The notes beneath the pieces were generated by a model that did no database searches, had not been told where the DNA came from, and worked only from the letters and a program-made list of their open reading frames with translations. A stretch of 21,833 nucleotides of DNA from a virus. Where the stretch lies: the IMG/VR virus record IMGVR_UViG_3300025168_000775, positions 1-21,833 of that record; one strand, written 5' to 3'. The position numbers were made by a program, and so were the translations under genes. This document shows, in pieces, positions 3,021-15,821 of this stretch; positions within the stretch are counted from its first letter, which is position 1; the number at the start of each line of letters is the position of its first letter.

Positions 3021-3903
3021 ACAAACAGATGATTTTAACTTAGACTACTTCCCTAGTAAAAGAAGCTCATTGTTTCATTACTTAGATATGACTAAAAACT
3101 TTGAATCATCTTTTAGAGACATGATAACAGTTAATGTTGATGGCTACAATGTTATAGATGAAAGTAGATCTAATCCTTATGGTGCGAAGTCAAGATTTGG
3201 TGAATACATGGTTCAAAACGTAAAAGAAAAAGAGATAGTTTACGTACAACCTAGAGTGGGGTTTGCAGGAATTAGCTTATCTTATTTATGTAAAAAATAT
3301 AATAAGAACCTAACGCTAGTGATGCCATCTAGTAAAGAAGCAAGTGAACATCAAAGGTTGTGCATAGAGATGGGAGCTAAGCCATTGTTTTGTAGAATAG
3401 CAGCAATGCCTAATGCAAATAGAATAGCAAAGCGATATGCAGAAGAACGTAATGCTTTCTTCGTGCCACTTGGATTAAAGCATGAACATGTAACTGCAAA
3501 TGCTGTAAGATCGATACATGATTATTTTAAAGATAAAGAGAAACCTAAAAGAATGTGGAGTGTAATAAGTACTGGTGTACTTACTAGAGCTTTACAAATA
3601 GCTTTACCTGATACAGAATTTTTTGCTGTAGCTGTTGCTAGAAATATACAACAAGGTGAATTAGGTCGTGCAAAGTTTTATTCTTATCATAAAGCATTTA
3701 CAAGTGAGTCAGACGTTGTGCCACATAAATTTAATAGTGAAAGATGTTACGATAGTAAAGGATGGGATTACATGCTAAGATATGGTCAAAAAGGTGACTG
3801 GTTTTTTAACGTAGCAGGCCAAGCACCAAAGACAAAGATAGAAGCAAAAGATATAGACTCTTATAGAGATTGGAATGACTTAAAAGATTTTAATGGATTT
3901 TAA
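3007..3903 (+). CDS. PLP-dependent fold-type II enzyme (cysteine synthase / threonine synthase superfamily)
   Basis: The 298-residue protein has the core of the tryptophan-synthase-beta superfamily. E-S-R-S-N-P-Y-G-A-K-S-R (52-63) corresponds to the E...NPTGSFKDR block, making Lys61 the likely Schiff-base lysine. P-R-V-G-F-A-G-I-S-L (82-91) stands where the S-G-N-x-G loop normally is. M-P-S-S-K-E-A (106-112) and E-M-G-A (121-124) match the Rossmann-like strand and the E-x-G-A turn. S-T-G-V-L-T-R-A-L (188-196) replaces the Gly-rich phosphate-binding loop. The altered S-G-N and G-S-G-G loops suggest a diverged substrate. In this position it could build or rearrange an amino-acid-derived side chain on DNA, as PLP enzymes do in other hypermodifying phages. 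It overlaps the downstream gene by 11 bases. The substrate is unknown. Confidence 0.72.
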   Translation: MFLNKQTDDFNLDYFPSKRSSLFHYLDMTKNFESSFRDMITVNVDGYNVIDESRSNPYGAKSRFGEYMVQNVKEKEIVYVQPRVGFAGISLSYLCKKYNKNLTLVMPSSKEASEHQRLCIEMGAKPLFCRIAAMPNANRIAKRYAEERNAFFVPLGLKHEHVTANAVRSIHDYFKDKEKPKRMWSVISTGVLTRALQIALPDTEFFAVAVARNIQQGELGRAKFYSYHKAFTSESDVVPHKFNSERCYDSKGWDYMLRYGQKGDWFFNVAGQAPKTKIEAKDIDSYRDWNDLKDFNGF

Positions 3904-5434: not shown

Positions 5435-5745
5435 AAGTGTTTGCTAATAAATTAGGGAATGTAAGTAAAGCATGTGAAGCTACAGATATATCTCGTAGAA
5501 CATTTTACAATTGGCTTAAAGAAGAAGACTTTAGTAGCAAGGTAGAAGACGTTAGAGAAGGTCTAATAGACTTTGCTGAAGCACAGTTGTTATCTAACAT
5601 AAAAGAAGGAAAGACGGCAGAGATATTATTCTATCTAAAAACAAAAGGTAAGAAGAGAGGATACATTGAAAGACAAGAAGTAGAGACTGTAGGAGAGAAT
5701 CAGTTTGAAGTTAAGATAGTAAAGAATGAAACAGATACAGACTAA
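5407..5745 (+). CDS. Terminase small subunit-like HTH protein
   Basis: The 112-residue protein has an N-terminal helix-turn-helix (about 17-37: N-V-S-K-A-C-E-A-T-D-I-S-R-R-T-F-Y-N-W-L-K), then helices around D-F-A-E-A-Q-L-L and T-A-E-I-L-F-Y-L-K-T-K-G-K-K-R-G-Y. That last segment is characteristic of phage small terminase subunits of the Gram-positive/Bacteroidota type. The small subunit recognises the packaging site and hands DNA to the large subunit. It lies immediately upstream of the large-subunit gene with a 20-base overlap, which supports the call. The C-terminal 20 residues are polar and acidic and may contact the large subunit. Confidence 0.75.
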   Translation: MAKDKDQFLEVFANKLGNVSKACEATDISRRTFYNWLKEEDFSSKVEDVREGLIDFAEAQLLSNIKEGKTAEILFYLKTKGKKRGYIERQEVETVGENQFEVKIVKNETDTD

Positions 5746-6883
5746 CATTGTATTTGAAGAACTAGAAAGAATATCAGATTCCAAAATACGTGTTTTTCAA
5801 GGAGGAAGTAGAAGCGGTAAAACTTTTAATATTTTACTATGGATTATATTTAGCTACTGCTATAAAAACAAGAATAAGACTATATCTATATGTCGTAAGA
5901 CTTTACCTAGTTTAAAAGCTTCAGTACTACGAGACTTCTTAGAAATATTAAGATCTAACGAATTATATAGTGAGATATATCATAACAAGACTTCTAATGA
6001 ATATTGGTTAAATGGTAACTTAATAGAATTCTTTAGTCTTGACATGGGTTCTAGAGTAAGAGGTAGGAAAAGAGATCTGCTATTTGTAAACGAAGCAAAC
6101 GAGATAGACTACGAATCATGGTCTCAGTTGTTATTTAGAACAGACGGAGGTATAATCATTGACTATAATCCTCATGATCAGTTTCATTGGATATACGATA
6201 AAGTCTTAGATCGAGACGATTGCCAACTACATATATCTACTTACATAGATAATCCATTTATAAGTAAGACACTAAAAGATGAGATAGAAAGATTAAGAAT
6301 AACAGACCCACAATATTGGAGAGTATATGGACTAGGACTACGAGGTCAGAATAGATCATTAGTGTTTAAGTTTAATATAACAGATAAGATACCAGAAGAA
6401 GCAAAGCTATTAGCATACGGTTTAGACTTTGGATTCAGTAACGACCCAAGCTCGATGTGTGCGACTTACGTGTTAGGAGATGACATGTATGTTAAGGAAC
6501 TTCTATATAGTACAGGATTAACTAACCAAGACATTAGTAGAGAGTTTGACAAATTAGGTTTAGATAGAAGAGATGAGATCTTTGCTGATAGTTCAGAACC
6601 TAAATCAATTGAAGAACTACATAGAATGGGATGGAATGTAAAAGGCAAAAAGAAATATGAGATTAACTACGGTATAGATCTTATAAGAAGATACAGATTA
6701 AACGTGACTAAAGATAGTACTAATGCTATAAAGGAATTAGAAAGCTATAAGTTTATAGAGGATAAAAATGGTAACCCTACAAATAAGCCATTAGACAAAA
6801 ACAATCACTTCTGTGATAGTCTACGTTATTCAGTAGTACATAAATTGTCTTATCCTAATTACGGTAGATACGCTATTAAATAA
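5726..6883 (+). CDS. terL: Terminase large subunit
   Basis: The 385-residue packaging motor has the ATPase and nuclease halves in order. Walker A is G-G-S-R-S-G-K-T (26-33) and Walker B is L-L-F-V-N-E-A-N-E (118-126) with Glu catalytic. D-Y-N-P-H-D-Q-F-H-W (146-155) is the usual motif after Walker B. The RNase-H-like nuclease acidic residues are Asp234 (G-L-D-F-G-F-S-N-D-P), Asp288 (F-A-D-S-S-E-P) and Asp364 (H-F-C-D-S-L-R-Y). It translocates DNA into the prohead using ATP and cuts concatemers. The length is slightly short but complete. The gene is the last plus-strand gene before the minus-strand island; a weak hairpin with TTTT at 6919-6957 may end its transcript. Confidence 0.96.
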   Translation: MKQIQTNIVFEELERISDSKIRVFQGGSRSGKTFNILLWIIFSYCYKNKNKTISICRKTLPSLKASVLRDFLEILRSNELYSEIYHNKTSNEYWLNGNLIEFFSLDMGSRVRGRKRDLLFVNEANEIDYESWSQLLFRTDGGIIIDYNPHDQFHWIYDKVLDRDDCQLHISTYIDNPFISKTLKDEIERLRITDPQYWRVYGLGLRGQNRSLVFKFNITDKIPEEAKLLAYGLDFGFSNDPSSMCATYVLGDDMYVKELLYSTGLTNQDISREFDKLGLDRRDEIFADSSEPKSIEELHRMGWNVKGKKKYEINYGIDLIRRYRLNVTKDSTNAIKELESYKFIEDKNGNPTNKPLDKNNHFCDSLRYSVVHKLSYPNYGRYAIK

Positions 6884-6975: not shown

Positions 6976-7167
6976 TCAGACCTCGATCGGAATACTGAAT
7001 TCTAGACCACCTTCAGGTGCTACGTCAGGATATTTATCAATTGCATTTAAGAAGGTAATATTTTCTTCTACTAACTTTTCAAAGCTTCTAATAAAAAGTG
7101 ACGATGTACACCAAAAATGGTGATTCTCTTTGTAGCAATATACTACGTAACCTTTTTTATTTTTCAT
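6976..7167 (-). CDS. Unknown small protein, 63 aa, minus-strand island
   Basis: The product begins with a basic tail (M-K-N-K-K-G) followed by strand-like Y-V-V-Y-C-Y, and ends with G-G-L-E-F-S-I-P-I-E-V. The middle holds H-H-F-W-C and a helix around F-I-R-S-F-E-K-L. I do not recognise a family. Its ATG overlaps the stop of the upstream leftward gene (TAATG), so the two are translationally coupled and share a transcript that ends at the terminator at 6882-6910. It could be a small regulator or an anti-host factor; the sequence does not say. Confidence 0.55.
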   Translation of the reverse strand: MKNKKGYVVYCYKENHHFWCTSSLFIRSFEKLVEENITFLNAIDKYPDVAPEGGLEFSIPIEV

Positions 7168-7412
7168 TATGATCTATTTAAAAAGTCATCCACTAGATCT
7201 TGCGGAGTTAGGTTAGGTCTATCTACTATTTCTAAAAAGTACTTAGCATCTCTTTTAAGTATAAGAAGGTAGTTATACCTATTATGTTCAATCTCTGTTA
7301 AAGAGTGCAATGTGTTTGCTTTTAGTGCACCAAAGTTGAAAAATATGTCCGATGTTTCAATATCTACTTTAGACTTAAACATCGTTGTTGAAGTTTGTGT
7401 TTGTGTTTTCAT
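7167..7412 (-). CDS. Unknown protein, 81 aa, minus-strand island
   Basis: The start chosen is the ATG at 7412-7410, not the TTG at 7427, because the ATG lies in the same place inside a 20-base leader that also surrounds the start of the other leftward gene (7990). The N-terminus is Thr/Gln-rich (K-T-Q-T-Q-T-S-T-T), followed by a mixed alpha/beta body with I-F-F-N-F-G, Y-N-Y-L-L-I-L-K-R and an acidic end (Q-D-L-V-D-D-F-L-N-R-S). There is no recognisable family, signal peptide or membrane segment. The next gene is coupled to it by a one-base overlap. Confidence 0.6.
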   Translation of the reverse strand: MKTQTQTSTTMFKSKVDIETSDIFFNFGALKANTLHSLTEIEHNRYNYLLILKRDAKYFLEIVDRPNLTPQDLVDDFLNRS

Positions 7413-7425
7413 ACAGCTAATATAC
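7406..7425 (-). promoter_or_regulatory. Shared leader motif, copy B
   Basis: The plus-strand sequence TTTTCATACAGCTAATATAC covers the start codon (CAT at 7410-7412) and 13 upstream bases of the leftward gene. The second copy at 7984-8003 differs at one base. Both copies have AAATT(G/T) a few bases further upstream and another AATTGT about 40-50 bases before the start. It may be a promoter/5' leader or an operator controlling both units. Confidence 0.5.
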
Positions 7426-7456
7426 AATTTTTTTTATTAATAATACAATTTTAAGC

Positions 7457-7486
7457 AAAAAAAAACCTACTAATTAAAGTAGGCTT
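7457..7486 (-). terminator. Rho-independent terminator after the 7990-7508 gene
   Basis: On the minus strand AAGCCTAC pairs with GTAGGTTT (one G-T wobble) around the loop TTTAATTA, and the stem runs into a T tract formed by the nine A residues at 7457-7465. It lies 22 bases beyond the stop of the leftward gene and separates it from the second leftward unit. Confidence 0.8.
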
Positions 7487-7507
7487 AATTTTAAATATAA
7501 ATAAATT

Positions 7508-7990
7508 CTAAAAATTAGGGTCTTGATAACTACAAGCAGAGCCAAAGTGTAAATGTACTCTACATGATCTTTTCTTATATACAGTATAACCTTCTAAATT
7601 TTTTCTTTCATCGTACATAAGATCGAAACATTTTTTACCTATTTCAGTAGTACGAGACCAATCCCAAGTAGAACCATATTTTTCAATGATCTGATCTTGT
7701 ACTTCTGGAATCCAATGAACTTCATGGTAAACTTTCTTGAAACAAGGATAACCTTTATACGTACCCATTTCAATAACCATCTCTTGTCCGTTAACAGTAG
7801 ATTTAAAAGTATGTTGTTGATTGCTGTAATAATCTGAATCAGCAGTTGGTATAGCTTTAAGCTCTCTAATTCTAATTCTCTTACTTGATATGTTCTCAAT
7901 AACTTCGTAAGGGTATCGATCTGAACCGACACTTTTAGTAATACCTGTACCTACAGGATAGTCGTTTAAATTTATTTGTGTGTTTTTCAT
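7508..7990 (-). CDS. Unknown 160-aa protein with SDRYPYEVIE motif, minus-strand island
   Basis: The N-terminal 45 residues hold G-T-G-I-T-K-S-V-G-S-D-R-Y-P-Y-E-V-I-E and then R-I-R-I-R-E. This resembles a small beta-barrel-like module seen in scattered phage and plasmid proteins (G-x-x-x-x-S-D-R-x-x-x-x-V), which I cannot name. The middle carries T-V-N-G-Q-E-M-V-I-E-M-G and a Trp-rich stretch (V-H-W-I-P, S-T-W-D-W-S-R). The C-terminus has two Cys and R-V-H-L-H-F-G. It is a single-gene unit with its own leader (7984-8003) and a strong terminator (7457-7486). A moron-like accessory role is inferred from layout alone. A 97-codon ORF inside it in another minus frame is a shadow. Confidence 0.65.
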   Translation of the reverse strand: MKNTQINLNDYPVGTGITKSVGSDRYPYEVIENISSKRIRIRELKAIPTADSDYYSNQQHTFKSTVNGQEMVIEMGTYKGYPCFKKVYHEVHWIPEVQDQIIEKYGSTWDWSRTTEIGKKCFDLMYDERKNLEGYTVYKKRSCRVHLHFGSACSYQDPNF

Positions 7991-8074: not shown

Positions 8075-8746
8075 ATGAATATAAGAGTTAAAGTGCCTAC
8101 TAAATTATCAGAGCTTACATTATCTCAGTATCAAAAGTATTTAAGAATACAAGCAGATAATAAAGACACAACGTTTGTAGCACAAAAGATGGTAGAGATA
8201 TTCTGCGGCTTAAGTTTAGATCAAGTTGTTAGAATGAAATGGAGAGACGTAAAAGAAATAACAGAAGAGTTAGGAGACTTATTCGATCTAGAGTCACAAT
8301 TTATAAAGAAGTTTACTTTTAATAATACTAACTACGGATTTATACCTAACTTAGATGAAATTAGTTTTGGAGAATTTGTAGATCTAGATTCATGTTTACA
8401 AGATTGGCAAAAGATGCACCATGCTATGCAGATATTATATAGACCTATTGACATACAAGTAAGAGGTAGATACAATATAAAAGACTATGATGGTGTGTTA
8501 GATGATACAATGAAAGAAATACCATTAGATGTAGCTTTAGGATCGGTTTTTTTTTTATTGAATTTAGGGAAAGAGTTGTCGGAAGTTACGATGGACTATT
8601 TCAGCAAGGGGATTCTAACGGAACATTCTCAAGTGAAGGAGGATTTAATGCCAAATGGGGTTGGTACAACAGCTTTTTTCAGGCAAGTCAAGGAGATCTT
8701 AGGGTCTTTGAAGATATTTCCAAACTCGGGCTACATAAAGTATTAA
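8075..8746 (+). CDS. Tail-assembly-chaperone-like protein, zero-frame product (223 aa)
   Basis: The N-terminal 160 residues are helical with typical phage codon use (A/T third positions). They contain L-S-E-L-T-L-S-Q-Y-Q-K-Y (12-23), I-F-C-G-L-S and a repeated acidic helix pattern, and end in P-L-D-V-A-L-G-S-V-F-F. I associate this with the small tail proteins at the start of the tail block in Bacteroidota phages. From codon 161 the zero frame runs on for 63 codons (L-L-N-L-G-K-E-L...K-Y) with atypical codons such as GGG, GAG, AAG and TCG, while the -1 frame there has normal third positions. A T TTT TTA heptamer lies exactly at the switch, so two products with different C-termini are likely. 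The chaperone role is inferred by analogy with lambda G/GT. Confidence 0.7.
   Translation: MNIRVKVPTKLSELTLSQYQKYLRIQADNKDTTFVAQKMVEIFCGLSLDQVVRMKWRDVKEITEELGDLFDLESQFIKKFTFNNTNYGFIPNLDEISFGEFVDLDSCLQDWQKMHHAMQILYRPIDIQVRGRYNIKDYDGVLDDTMKEIPLDVALGSVFFLLNLGKELSEVTMDYFSKGILTEHSQVKEDLMPNGVGTTAFFRQVKEILGSLKIFPNSGYIKY
8551..8557 (+). promoter_or_regulatory. Programmed -1 frameshift site T TTT TTA
   Basis: The heptamer is in the correct phase: zero-frame codons are TTT (8552-8554) and TTA (8555-8557). It is embedded in a run of ten T (8547-8556). U UUU UUA is a classical -1 slippery sequence. A -1 slip enters a frame that stays open for 86 more codons and ends 11 bases inside the next gene. No strong downstream hairpin is evident; a weak GTC...GAC pairing lies about 20 bases on. 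Confidence 0.7.
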
Positions 8747-8817
8747 TGTATTTAGAATATATAACAGAAAAAGCAATGTTAGAAAATCAAAGATTAAAAA
8801 GAAACCATGGCAGATAA
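8554..8817 (+). CDS. -1 frame C-terminal extension of the tail-chaperone-like protein (fusion 247 aa)
   Basis: There is no start codon of its own that makes sense; it is read as a continuation of the 8075 gene after slippage. The 86-residue extension starts I-E-F-R-E-R-V-V and contains F-N-A-K-W-G-W-Y-N-S-F-F-Q-A, G-D-L-R-V-F-E-D-I and L-G-L-H-K-V-L-M-Y-L-E-Y, and ends with a charged helix (E-K-A-M-L-E-N-Q-R-L-K-R). The K-W-G-W-Y block followed by a helical H-x-x-L-x-x-L-x-Y segment looks like a conserved tail-protein module. Its TAA overlaps the next gene by 11 bases, the same overlap seen at two other junctions here (2109 and 3893), which supports this as the true gene end. The alternative explanation is a homopolymer length error in the assembly. 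Confidence 0.68.
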   Translation, partial: FIEFRERVVGSYDGLFQQGDSNGTFSSEGGFNAKWGWYNSFFQASQGDLRVFEDISKLGLHKVLMYLEYITEKAMLENQRLKRNHGR

Positions 8818-13800: not shown

Positions 13801-15207
13801 ACGTATTATCTTTTAAGAGATTGTGCTACTGTTACTATAGTTAGAACCTCTACAACAACAACCGATCTAACTTTAAATGTAAGTTCTACATTAGCTAATG
13901 CATCTAGAGTGCAAGATACAAATACAGGTAAATGTTACACAGCTAATTCTACTACACAAGATACAGTAACTTATCCAACAGCTATAGGAGCAGTAACATC
14001 TCTTGGAGTTAATGATTGTCCATCTACACCTTGTACCACAACTCAATACTATAATTTACAACAGTGTTCTACAGGTAACACAGGATTTATTAGTGCACAA
14101 ACAACTGATCAAATAGCTTTATCAGTAAATGATATGGTGACTTCAGGCTCAACAAATGGACCGTTATATAAAGTGTTAGGAAATGCTACGAGTGGAAATT
14201 CTGTTGGAACTGTTTTTGCAAATGCAGCTACTGCTTGTCCTGCTTATTACACTTTGACTCAATGTTATACGAATCAGACAGGGTATAGAACTGATAACAC
14301 AACTACAGAAATTACATTATCAAATGGACGAAGAGTACAAGGTCCTAATGGTATGCCTTATACAGTTACAGGGACAGTAGGGTCAGGGTTAGCAAATATA
14401 GGTACAGTAACAGATACAGGTCAAACAGGTTGTCCAACAATTACAGGATCTACTCAATATTATCAATTAGAAAGATGTTCAGATAGTGTTACTGGTTTCT
14501 TATCACTACAAACAGTTAATGATATAAATTTAAGTACAAATGATGTAGTAGGTTTAGGTAGTGCATCAGGAGTTACATATCAAGTAACAGGTACTGGATT
14601 AGCAAATACAGGTACACAAGTTGGAGTTGTTGCAGATACAGGAAACACTAATTGTTTAACACCTGTTACACCACCAGTTGTACCGGGTACTACAACTTAT
14701 GCTAGATTTATATCATGTGACGATCCTACAGGTGCTATTATTAGTGTATCTAGTACACAATCTATAGGAACTTGGTGGGTTATTTCAGAAGTTGGTCAGT
14801 TTGAATGTTATAGATGGTTAGATAATACACAAGGAGTAAATCCTATTGAGTTAAATAGTTCTAACTTTAATTTTTACACAGTAGAGTCTACAGCTGGTGC
14901 TAATTGTAGTGACTGTCAATCTGTAGTTCCTCCTCCAGCTCCAGCACCTAGACCTCCATCACAAACTTGTTTTACGTTAAGTTTATTAAGATCGTCTACT
15001 GCTTTAAATCTATGTGATGTAGTTCCTACTACAGTGTATGCTAATAATTCTACACTTGCATCAGCATCAATTATATATTCTAATAGTGATTGTACTACTT
15101 TAGAATCAGTAGATAGGTATTTAGCATCTAGTATTGGAGCAGGTTATTACTTTTGGAACGCATCTGCACAAACATTAACAGGTTCATTTACTTTAAACTG
15201 TCCATAA
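10813..15207 (+). CDS. Large tail/adhesin protein with about ten Cys-containing C-terminal modules
   Basis: The largest gene in the window encodes 1464 residues. The first ~730 residues look like a baseplate or central tail protein: beta-rich with V-F-T-D-F-T-K-P-F-T-L-P-A (36-48), then a long mixed domain ending near E-L-L-N-E-T-I. From about 732 the protein changes to tandem modules of 55-90 residues, each opening with Y-Y-x-L-x-x-C (near 801, 879, 935, 998, 1079, 1145, 1216; variants at 1296 and 1386) and usually closing with a T-G-x-x-x-C-P-like turn. Thr, Ser, Asn and Cys are enriched. A Pro-rich linker (P-P-P-A-P-A-P-R-P-P) precedes the last module. The modules are probably receptor-binding or glycan-binding domains. 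Its stop overlaps a prolyl-hydroxylase-like gene. Tail location is confident by context; receptor binding is inferred. Confidence 0.75.
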   Translation: MSKFQLYIGSQRVELFKDESVSLTETIQDIKDVSKVFTDFTKPFTLPASDTNNKIFKHYYKFNIAQGFTFDARKKVSAKIELNTVPYKDGKIRLEGVDLENGKPKSYRITFFGNTVNLKDILGDDLINGLSWLSNFNLTYSANKIEEVMTTSTGYSPTIGGVQYNKAIIVPLISNTQRLYYSTTNRIPYNNADGTINSALGGNLYPTDNGSGTKTTDDIHGVLFEDLTYAIQIDLIVKAIEEEYTDIKFSDDFFNLTNGPDSYKKLYMLCQKKEGRPFEDMSVGERLITGFSTGINNNIVTSFAGISVFGLNPSQFITAKWTLTTGQAHPTFTAVLREGSEEVLRRKFIGGTSSTAIITQFLTNSEQGYNLTIETESAFDITSVLFEGSTPSGNTLSSQINTTIAVEVQKEFVVQQHLPNMKVVDFLTSLFKMYNLTAFELDGIIHVKTLESFYSSGSLRDITEFVDPQTLQIDKALPYREIEFKYDDTETTLAKQHFESNGVRWGAAKYIETGNLNSNDQKFDVVSNFAHLKYERIVSSIGSNTDIQWGFLANEKNEPFFQNAVVFIGDFVTLPTGNTLRFLSGTTSVGEIHDVTEYWMPSNTVERDSTVSKESIHFSVELSEWDSTASFTDTLFNKYHRFYIAGLFNSAKRLSKIKARLPKKFMLNYTLADTVIINQDRYKINSITTDLLSGSSQLELLNETINDATITQDDTGGEGGQTGVALTNVLTLFQCAAPNSTFESTLTLADLNLAVNIRVEDAAGNTYRVTGNNVPNTHTTKAVTSTGETGCPSGTTPPPTNYYGLRRCSDGATNLRTSTAVGSPSYQTTQQVFDSSSVKYVIENSSTADTVPSITIASTPSPVQLTCSGNSSGGTTHNYSLTPCCGGTVLFGFSSSNSLSGIRIYQNQSYTLAASNTSGAINIDLLNSGSCPISYYSLNSCSDGSFQHHARSVCSNLNNTQLTYNGTCYSVQNSTNTTGTVNLDTLNSCTCSNPNPTYYLLRDCATVTIVRTSTTTTDLTLNVSSTLANASRVQDTNTGKCYTANSTTQDTVTYPTAIGAVTSLGVNDCPSTPCTTTQYYNLQQCSTGNTGFISAQTTDQIALSVNDMVTSGSTNGPLYKVLGNATSGNSVGTVFANAATACPAYYTLTQCYTNQTGYRTDNTTTEITLSNGRRVQGPNGMPYTVTGTVGSGLANIGTVTDTGQTGCPTITGSTQYYQLERCSDSVTGFLSLQTVNDINLSTNDVVGLGSASGVTYQVTGTGLANTGTQVGVVADTGNTNCLTPVTPPVVPGTTTYARFISCDDPTGAIISVSSTQSIGTWWVISEVGQFECYRWLDNTQGVNPIELNSSNFNFYTVESTAGANCSDCQSVVPPPAPAPRPPSQTCFTLSLLRSSTALNLCDVVPTTVYANNSTLASASIIYSNSDCTTLESVDRYLASSIGAGYYFWNASAQTLTGSFTLNCP
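13006..15204 (+). repeat. Coding tandem repeat: YYxLxxC modules
   Basis: About ten diverged modules are visible at the protein level. The best conserved three (starting near 14047, 14245 and 14458) share Y-Y-x-L-x-x-C, then T-G-(F/Y)-x-(S/T), a strand with (I/L)-x-L-S, V-x-G/x, Y-x-V-x-G and G-T/V-V-x-x-x-G-x-T-x-C. At the DNA level the copies are clearly diverged, so the array is old or under strong diversifying pressure and is not a fresh duplication. Confidence 0.7.
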
Positions 15208-15821
15208 TGAAAGAAATAGATAACTTTATTTCACTTGAAGAGTCAAAATACTTAATAAATATGATTAATAAGTATGCAACTAAGTCTATGGTTGTTGGAA
15301 ATGGACAAAAATATACAGATTATAGTAGTCAAAGAACATCATACACATCTAATTTAGTATCAGATGACCCTACAGTTGAGTCTATACAGCTAAGAATTGC
15401 TAGATATTTAGGTATACCAGTTACAAAAGGTGAGGCTTTACAAGGTCAAAGGTATGAGAAAGGCCAATTTTTCAAGCCACATGTTGATTATTTTAGTAAG
15501 GATAGTTATGATAAGAACTGTTTAGCTAGTGGAAATAGAACATTTACTTTTATGTTATACTTAAATGATGACTTTACAGGTGGTACAACTAAGTTTCCAC
15601 ATATAAATCTAGAAATACAACCAAAAAAATGTAAAGGAGTGGTTTGGAATAATTTACAAAACGGAGTTATTAATGAATACATGCAACACAGCGGAGAAGA
15701 AGTAACTAATGGTGTAAAGTATATCATAACATCTTGGTGGCGTGAGAATATATGGAATAATAGTGAAGATCAAAAGGAATACGAAAAAAAACTAAAAAGT
15801 AGTCAATTAAGTATTATATAA
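15207..15821 (+). CDS. 2-oxoglutarate/Fe(II) oxygenase, prolyl-4-hydroxylase-like
   Basis: The 204-residue enzyme has the full set of family residues: G-Q-R-Y-E-K-G-Q-F-F-K-P-H92-V-D94 (the H-x-D iron pair), F-M-L-Y-L-N-D-D-F-x-G-G-T-T-K-F-P (115-131), distal His161 and Lys171 (V-K-Y-I-I-T-S-W-W-R), which should bind 2-oxoglutarate. These enzymes hydroxylate Pro or other residues using O2. The start is the ATG at 15207 in a TAATG junction; a TTG at 15153 would run back through the upstream gene. Its place directly behind the Pro/Thr/Asn-rich tail protein suggests that protein as substrate. That is inference; phage 2OG oxygenases also act on nucleic acid or host proteins. Confidence 0.85.
   Translation: MKEIDNFISLEESKYLINMINKYATKSMVVGNGQKYTDYSSQRTSYTSNLVSDDPTVESIQLRIARYLGIPVTKGEALQGQRYEKGQFFKPHVDYFSKDSYDKNCLASGNRTFTFMLYLNDDFTGGTTKFPHINLEIQPKKCKGVVWNNLQNGVINEYMQHSGEEVTNGVKYIITSWWRENIWNNSEDQKEYEKKLKSSQLSII

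Follow-up and report, generated by a model that had tools for sequence, protein, structure and literature searches.

A phage gene with a conserved run of at least nine T's appears to be kept readable in two frames past its predicted slippage site

The tail genes G and T of phage lambda give two proteins, gpG and gpGT, which share a single stem and acquire different C-termini by a −1 shift. In lambda the commoner product coats the tape-measure protein and the rarer one recruits tail subunits; these roles are used here as given in the part of PMC5009743 drawn upon, where lambda-type cases are described as ribosomal. Two products from one gene are also generated by transcriptional slippage on runs of 9A or 9T, as in Thermus dnaX and IS elements, and according to the portion of PMC1088944 used here, selection against slippery runs emerges at a run length of 9 across a large share of bacterial genomes. 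A related gene is found in the Nonlabens phages P12024S and P12024L, where it is annotated as two hypothetical genes, 40 and 41.

The window analysed here is the whole 21,833 nt stretch of the IMG/VR virus record IMGVR_UViG_3300025168_000775 (positions 1 to 21,833), from a phage with relatives among the viruses of marine flavobacteria. Taken together, the data are best explained by one gene that would give two proteins of probable tail assembly through a slip at a run of ten T's, with both tails readable, and we place the probability of this reading at roughly 0.78. Both proteins would have a common stem of 161 residues. The majority of translation would stay in the zero frame and yield a 223-aa product, whose tail would prolong the last helix of the stem and then look flexible, and a minority would go one base back at the T10 and end in a KWGWY module, giving a protein of about 247 aa. 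The two products would have roles like those in lambda. Comparison among relatives shows the two-frame layout, a run that never falls below nine T's, and selection acting on the overlap in both frames; the occurrence of slippage, its ratio and a gpG/gpGT-like action are inferred. The unusual feature is that the DNA past the slip appears to be kept readable for both versions.

The locations of the features are shown in Table 1. The zero frame reads GTT TTT TTT TTA across the run (8546–8557), and the preliminary description was correct in placing a phased T TTT TTA heptamer inside the T10 and an 86-residue module in the −1 frame behind it, the sense codons of which end at 8814, before a stop at 8815–8817. 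The T10 is the sole run of nine or more T's or A's within the genes of the window, the remaining runs of this length (7457, 18539, 18798 and 21009) being intergenic. The end of the module overlaps the ATG of the downstream gene by 11 bases. This had been called the usual overlap of the genome, which is true only in part: two further gene pairs overlap by 11 (2109–2119 and 3893–3903) and the rest by other lengths.

Table 1. Positions of the predicted slippage gene and of neighbouring genes in the window.
Feature	Position	Strand	Basis
Terminase small subunit match	5407		Profile match
Terminase large subunit (TerL) match	5726–6883		Profile match
Zero-frame product ('G-like', 223 aa)	8075–8746	+	ORF translation; 39-row alignment; phrog_32199 E 3e-18
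T10 putative slippage run with two in-phase heptamers	8547–8556	+	Letters read; runs of relatives
Heptamer T TTT TTT	8548–8554	+	In phase with zero frame
Heptamer T TTT TTA	8551–8557	+	In phase with zero frame
−1 frame module, 86 aa, KWGWY ('GT-like' tail)	8557–8817	+	Module shared by relatives
Zero-frame tail, 62 codons after the TTA and stop; double-read stretch	8558–8746	+	Openness, substitutions, composition
Next gene, 156 aa	8807–9277	+	phrog_30964, function not assigned in that family
Tape-measure protein, weak match	15981		Profile match
Head maturation protease match	17653		Profile match
Virion structural protein match	19438		Profile match
Portal protein match	21575		Profile match

Three other features of the window were recorded. 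Small inverted ORFs lie on the minus strand between the terminase and the slippage gene (6976–7990), Cys-bearing repeats of the YYxLxxC type were seen by translation between 13000 and 15000 in the C-terminal half of a 1464-aa product, and a 2OG-Fe(II) oxygenase-like gene (phrog_61, 15201–15821) is situated amid the tail genes.

Searches of IMG/VR with the module recovered 66 loci with the single protein as query, and an alignment query gave 503, the best 80 being kept; three bacterial contigs also matched. The 120 loci analysed were the window, L004–L069, 51 of the 80 alignment-search loci and two bacterial contigs (L149 and L150). The remaining alignment-search loci were on contigs already in the single-protein set, L071 being scanned but removed as redundant; L002 and L003 repeat contigs of the single-protein set, L151 was handled with the chromosomal set and L022 contains N. 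The run was T10 in 85 loci, T9 in 33, T11 in one and T12 in one, and in 119/120 the module was found in the −1 frame behind a run of T9 to T12, which supports the earlier proposal of recoding at the T run where coding passes to the −1 frame. The isolate P12024L has T9 and a KWGWY module in the −1 frame; its zero-frame tail stops after about 24 codons, and the long tail is therefore not universal. The bacterial contigs L162 and L163 also carry T9 with a −1 module, in the gene order of the window from the terminase and slippage gene onward. The L162 locus is a prophage-like region within a chromosome.

The stretch downstream of the slip was expected to be richer in G and C than its surroundings, and this was confirmed: the G+C content is 39.7% in the overlap, 30.7% in the upstream part of the gene and 31.8% in the window, and 1.9% of 189-nt segments are equally GC-rich. 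The overlap exceeded the upstream part in all 47 non-redundant sequences. Openness of the zero frame was assessed by replacing −1 codons with synonymous ones at local usage and scoring zero-frame length. A zero frame as long as that of the window arose by chance with p = 0.002, in agreement with the suggestion that 62 open codons is unusually long, and p was below 0.05 in 34/47 non-redundant sequences. No excess of openness was found in clade C (L051–L069, with tails of 39–40 codons; p 0.22–0.39). Across the 47 sequences, which share ancestry so that the counts are not independent trials, no zero-frame stops were observed in codons 0–20 and 20–40, where 51.3 and 10.8 were expected; from codon 40 to the stop the count is zero by definition. 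Beyond the zero-frame stop there was no avoidance, with 210 stops observed and 181.7 expected.

Substitutions were compared in 31 disjoint pairs. Upstream of the run, zero-frame positions 1, 2 and 3 changed at 0.099, 0.059 and 0.255, whereas −1 positions 1, 2 and 3 of the overlap changed at 0.121, 0.060 and 0.096; the dominance of the wobble position upstream is thus absent from the overlap, both at −1 position 3 and at −1 position 1, which is the zero-frame wobble. The alignment of homologues with a check on synonymous sites, proposed previously, gave a −1 frame pS in the overlap that was 0.40 of that upstream (bootstrap 0.33–0.48) and 0.66 of that in the module after the overlap (0.52–0.84), but as pS after the overlap is already 0.61 of upstream, overlap explains only part of the reduction. 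Within group A, conservation is stronger for the zero frame in codons 0–20 (pN/pS 0.27 vs 1.16 in the −1 frame) and for the −1 frame in codons 20–40, around KWGWY. The constraint in group C is mainly on the −1 frame, with slight conservation of the zero frame, and conservation of the −1 peptide partly accounts for zero-frame motifs such as NGDG and LKISLN. Both overlapping tails nevertheless look to be under selection, and the stop avoidance and substitution pattern in relatives support the suggestion that both frames encode functional tails here.

The gene was also detected in bacterial chromosomes using a query from a Dysgonomonas contig, in 3/295 genomes of the order with the single protein and 5/393 by profile search, and a profile search of the genus placed the slippage gene in 20/25 genomes. 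Profile comparison links the Dysgonomonas-type and phage stems (E 6.6e-15). All 23 Dysgonomonas-type loci with a profile match in the order and genus searches have exactly T9 and keep the −1 layout, at G+C contents of 27–46% by locus. Among 21 distinct genes of this type, FF is preceded by GCT, AGT or GGT and followed by TTG or TTA; in comparable upstream columns a single third base was kept in 0/8, and Leu columns were all TTR in 0/3. Across three parts of the overlap, −1 position 3 changed at 0.21, 0.15 and 0.16, vs 0.433 after it (10 disjoint pairs). On these comparisons the Dysgonomonas-type genes are an independent lineage that repeats the T run and the dual coding.

Genes for terminase, portal, DUF6712, a tail-tip-like protein and the slippage product are interspersed with host genes in three Dysgonomonas-type genomes (G001, G022 and G136), spread over ~185 kb in G136 and ~52 kb on one contig in G001; in G673 a stretch of 10 kb takes in the terminase, portal and slippage genes. 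With several of the genomes in fragments, a gene on another contig is not always distant. Terminase was found in 23 and portal in 22 of the 25 genomes of the genus, and in most genomes the phage-type genes are present, mostly as single copies and often scattered between host genes (loci L151, L154, L155, L159–L161, L164–L166 and L168–L211). The Dysgonomonas set resembles a dispersed gene transfer agent and is a candidate for one. No gene transfer agent of Bacteroidota was found in an incomplete coverage of the literature that included part of PMC12946183.

A role as a tail chaperone is suggested by the layout of the recoding, by the surrounding genes and by weak matches to profiles and folds. 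No family in Pfam or NCBIfam scored above the cut-off for the slippage gene; weak profile matches to tail or chaperone families were PF10109 (E 0.15, below cut-off) and the tail protein family phrog_166 (E 0.02). Matches in BFVD were mostly unnamed viral proteins, apart from a weak fold match to A0A8S5V8Z8, annotated as a tail assembly chaperone (E 0.025, TM 0.40/0.45). Fold searches of the PDB gave nothing convincing, and a second look with VIA gave Z of at most 3.3. The AlphaFold model of the zero-frame product (pLDDT 71.5) has a helix at residues 151–177 that spans the slip and is extended by the first zero-frame residues past it (LNLGKELS..MDYL), while residues 179–223 score below 50; a model of the fused product (from L007) was poor (pLDDT 47) and was set aside. 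A stem, a −1 extension and a slippery site, as in genes of the G/GT type, are kept in relatives, but the gene is not in the G/GT-type position between the major tail protein and tape-measure genes. In the window, and likewise in L162, TerL is followed by the slippage gene, several more genes and then the tape-measure-like gene. Alignment to lambda G and T with hhalign found no sequence relation. The term 'G/GT-like tail chaperone' used earlier consequently stands as an analogy, for layout, tail-gene neighbourhood and weak matches: the gene may work like lambda G/GT, and membership of that family is not claimed, because no sequence relation was found and the tape-measure gene does not adjoin it.

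An error in the homopolymer, the true run being T11 and the frame single, would account for L007, in which the module is fused in frame behind T11 and whose identity to the T10 locus L009 is 99.8%. This is the only fused homologue among the 120 loci, a finding that had been named in advance as telling against a frameshift; the −1 phase is shared by the other 119 loci and by isolate and chromosomal genomes with T9, and such an error is extremely improbable. L007 may itself reflect a miscounted homopolymer or natural variation in run length, and was excluded from the substitution tests, codon tables and third-frame stop count. Hardly more credible is a module that forms a separate gene with its own start, as the annotators of P12024L supposed in placing a second gene there, since the module frame of the window contains no ORF of at least 50 aa starting with ATG, GTG or TTG; the module is, for the same reason, probably made solely as a fusion. 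A better case, though still an unlikely one, can be made for selection on the −1 module alone, with the zero-frame tail a passenger left open by chance. Clade C, the short tail of P12024L and the dependence of part of the zero-frame motif on the −1 peptide would all fit a passenger. Against it, groups A and B and the Dysgonomonas-type genes avoid stops and change little at the −1 wobble position, and the first 20 codons of group A are better conserved in the zero frame than in the −1 frame.

Given a dual-coded gene with two products, the same pair could be produced by ribosomal −1 slippage, as in lambda, through tandem tRNA slippage on T TTT TTT or T TTT TTA. Such slippage is possible because the run holds two in-phase heptamers, and for that reason the constant T9 could also serve it; an in-phase heptamer is present at every locus, and one clade (L100, L123 and L124) has a stable hairpin downstream of the run (z −3.5 to −5.5). 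Downstream RNA structure gave no general signal across lineages, however, being absent from most, and an Rfam search of the window gave no match. A run of at least nine identical bases is kept in phage-type and Dysgonomonas-type relatives, and in the latter nine T's are held at both ends, even where neither heptamer alone requires both. Ribosomal slippage is accordingly given a little less than an even chance. RNA polymerase slippage, in which a U would be added, is at least as well supported at about even odds, and the constant minimum of nine T's, the run length at which the selection described in PMC1088944 emerges, leads us to favour it slightly. An early stop in the third frame was tried as a mark of transcriptional slippage and rejected as non-discriminating: it falls within four codons past the run in 119/119 phage-type loci (without L007), with ~85% expected within five codons from the −1 codons alone, and it is found in 2/23 Dysgonomonas-type loci.

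A fuller account is offered tentatively, at odds well short of even. In it, RNA polymerase slipping on an obligatory stretch of nine or more T's would fix the ratio of a tail-chaperone-like protein pair, both tails would be functional, and the switch would have persisted as the phage genes were dispersed over Dysgonomonas chromosomes to form a system like a gene transfer agent. The locus would be a natural case, many times replicated, of long same-strand dual coding past a slip site, and would allow a clean test of whether RNA polymerase slippage, and not ribosomal slippage alone, serves phages in balancing their tail-assembly proteins.

In comparison with lambda gpG/gpGT, the gene shares a single stem with two C-termini by a −1 shift and a location among tail genes. 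It differs in its site, a homopolymer of T9 or more, in the absence of sequence similarity, in its separation from the tape-measure gene and in the extent of double reading, which is 62 codons here, whereas the lambda G and T annotations overlap by 19 nt. The Nonlabens phage genes 40/41 have a homologous stem (29% identity) and, in P12024L, the same kind of run and module, but a much shorter zero-frame tail. With the transcriptional slippage genes, the locus shares a run of at least nine identical bases predicted to give two products; it differs in that slippage is predicted here from sequence, and in that the cases in the parts of PMC5009743 and PMC1088944 used here include no phage tail gene.
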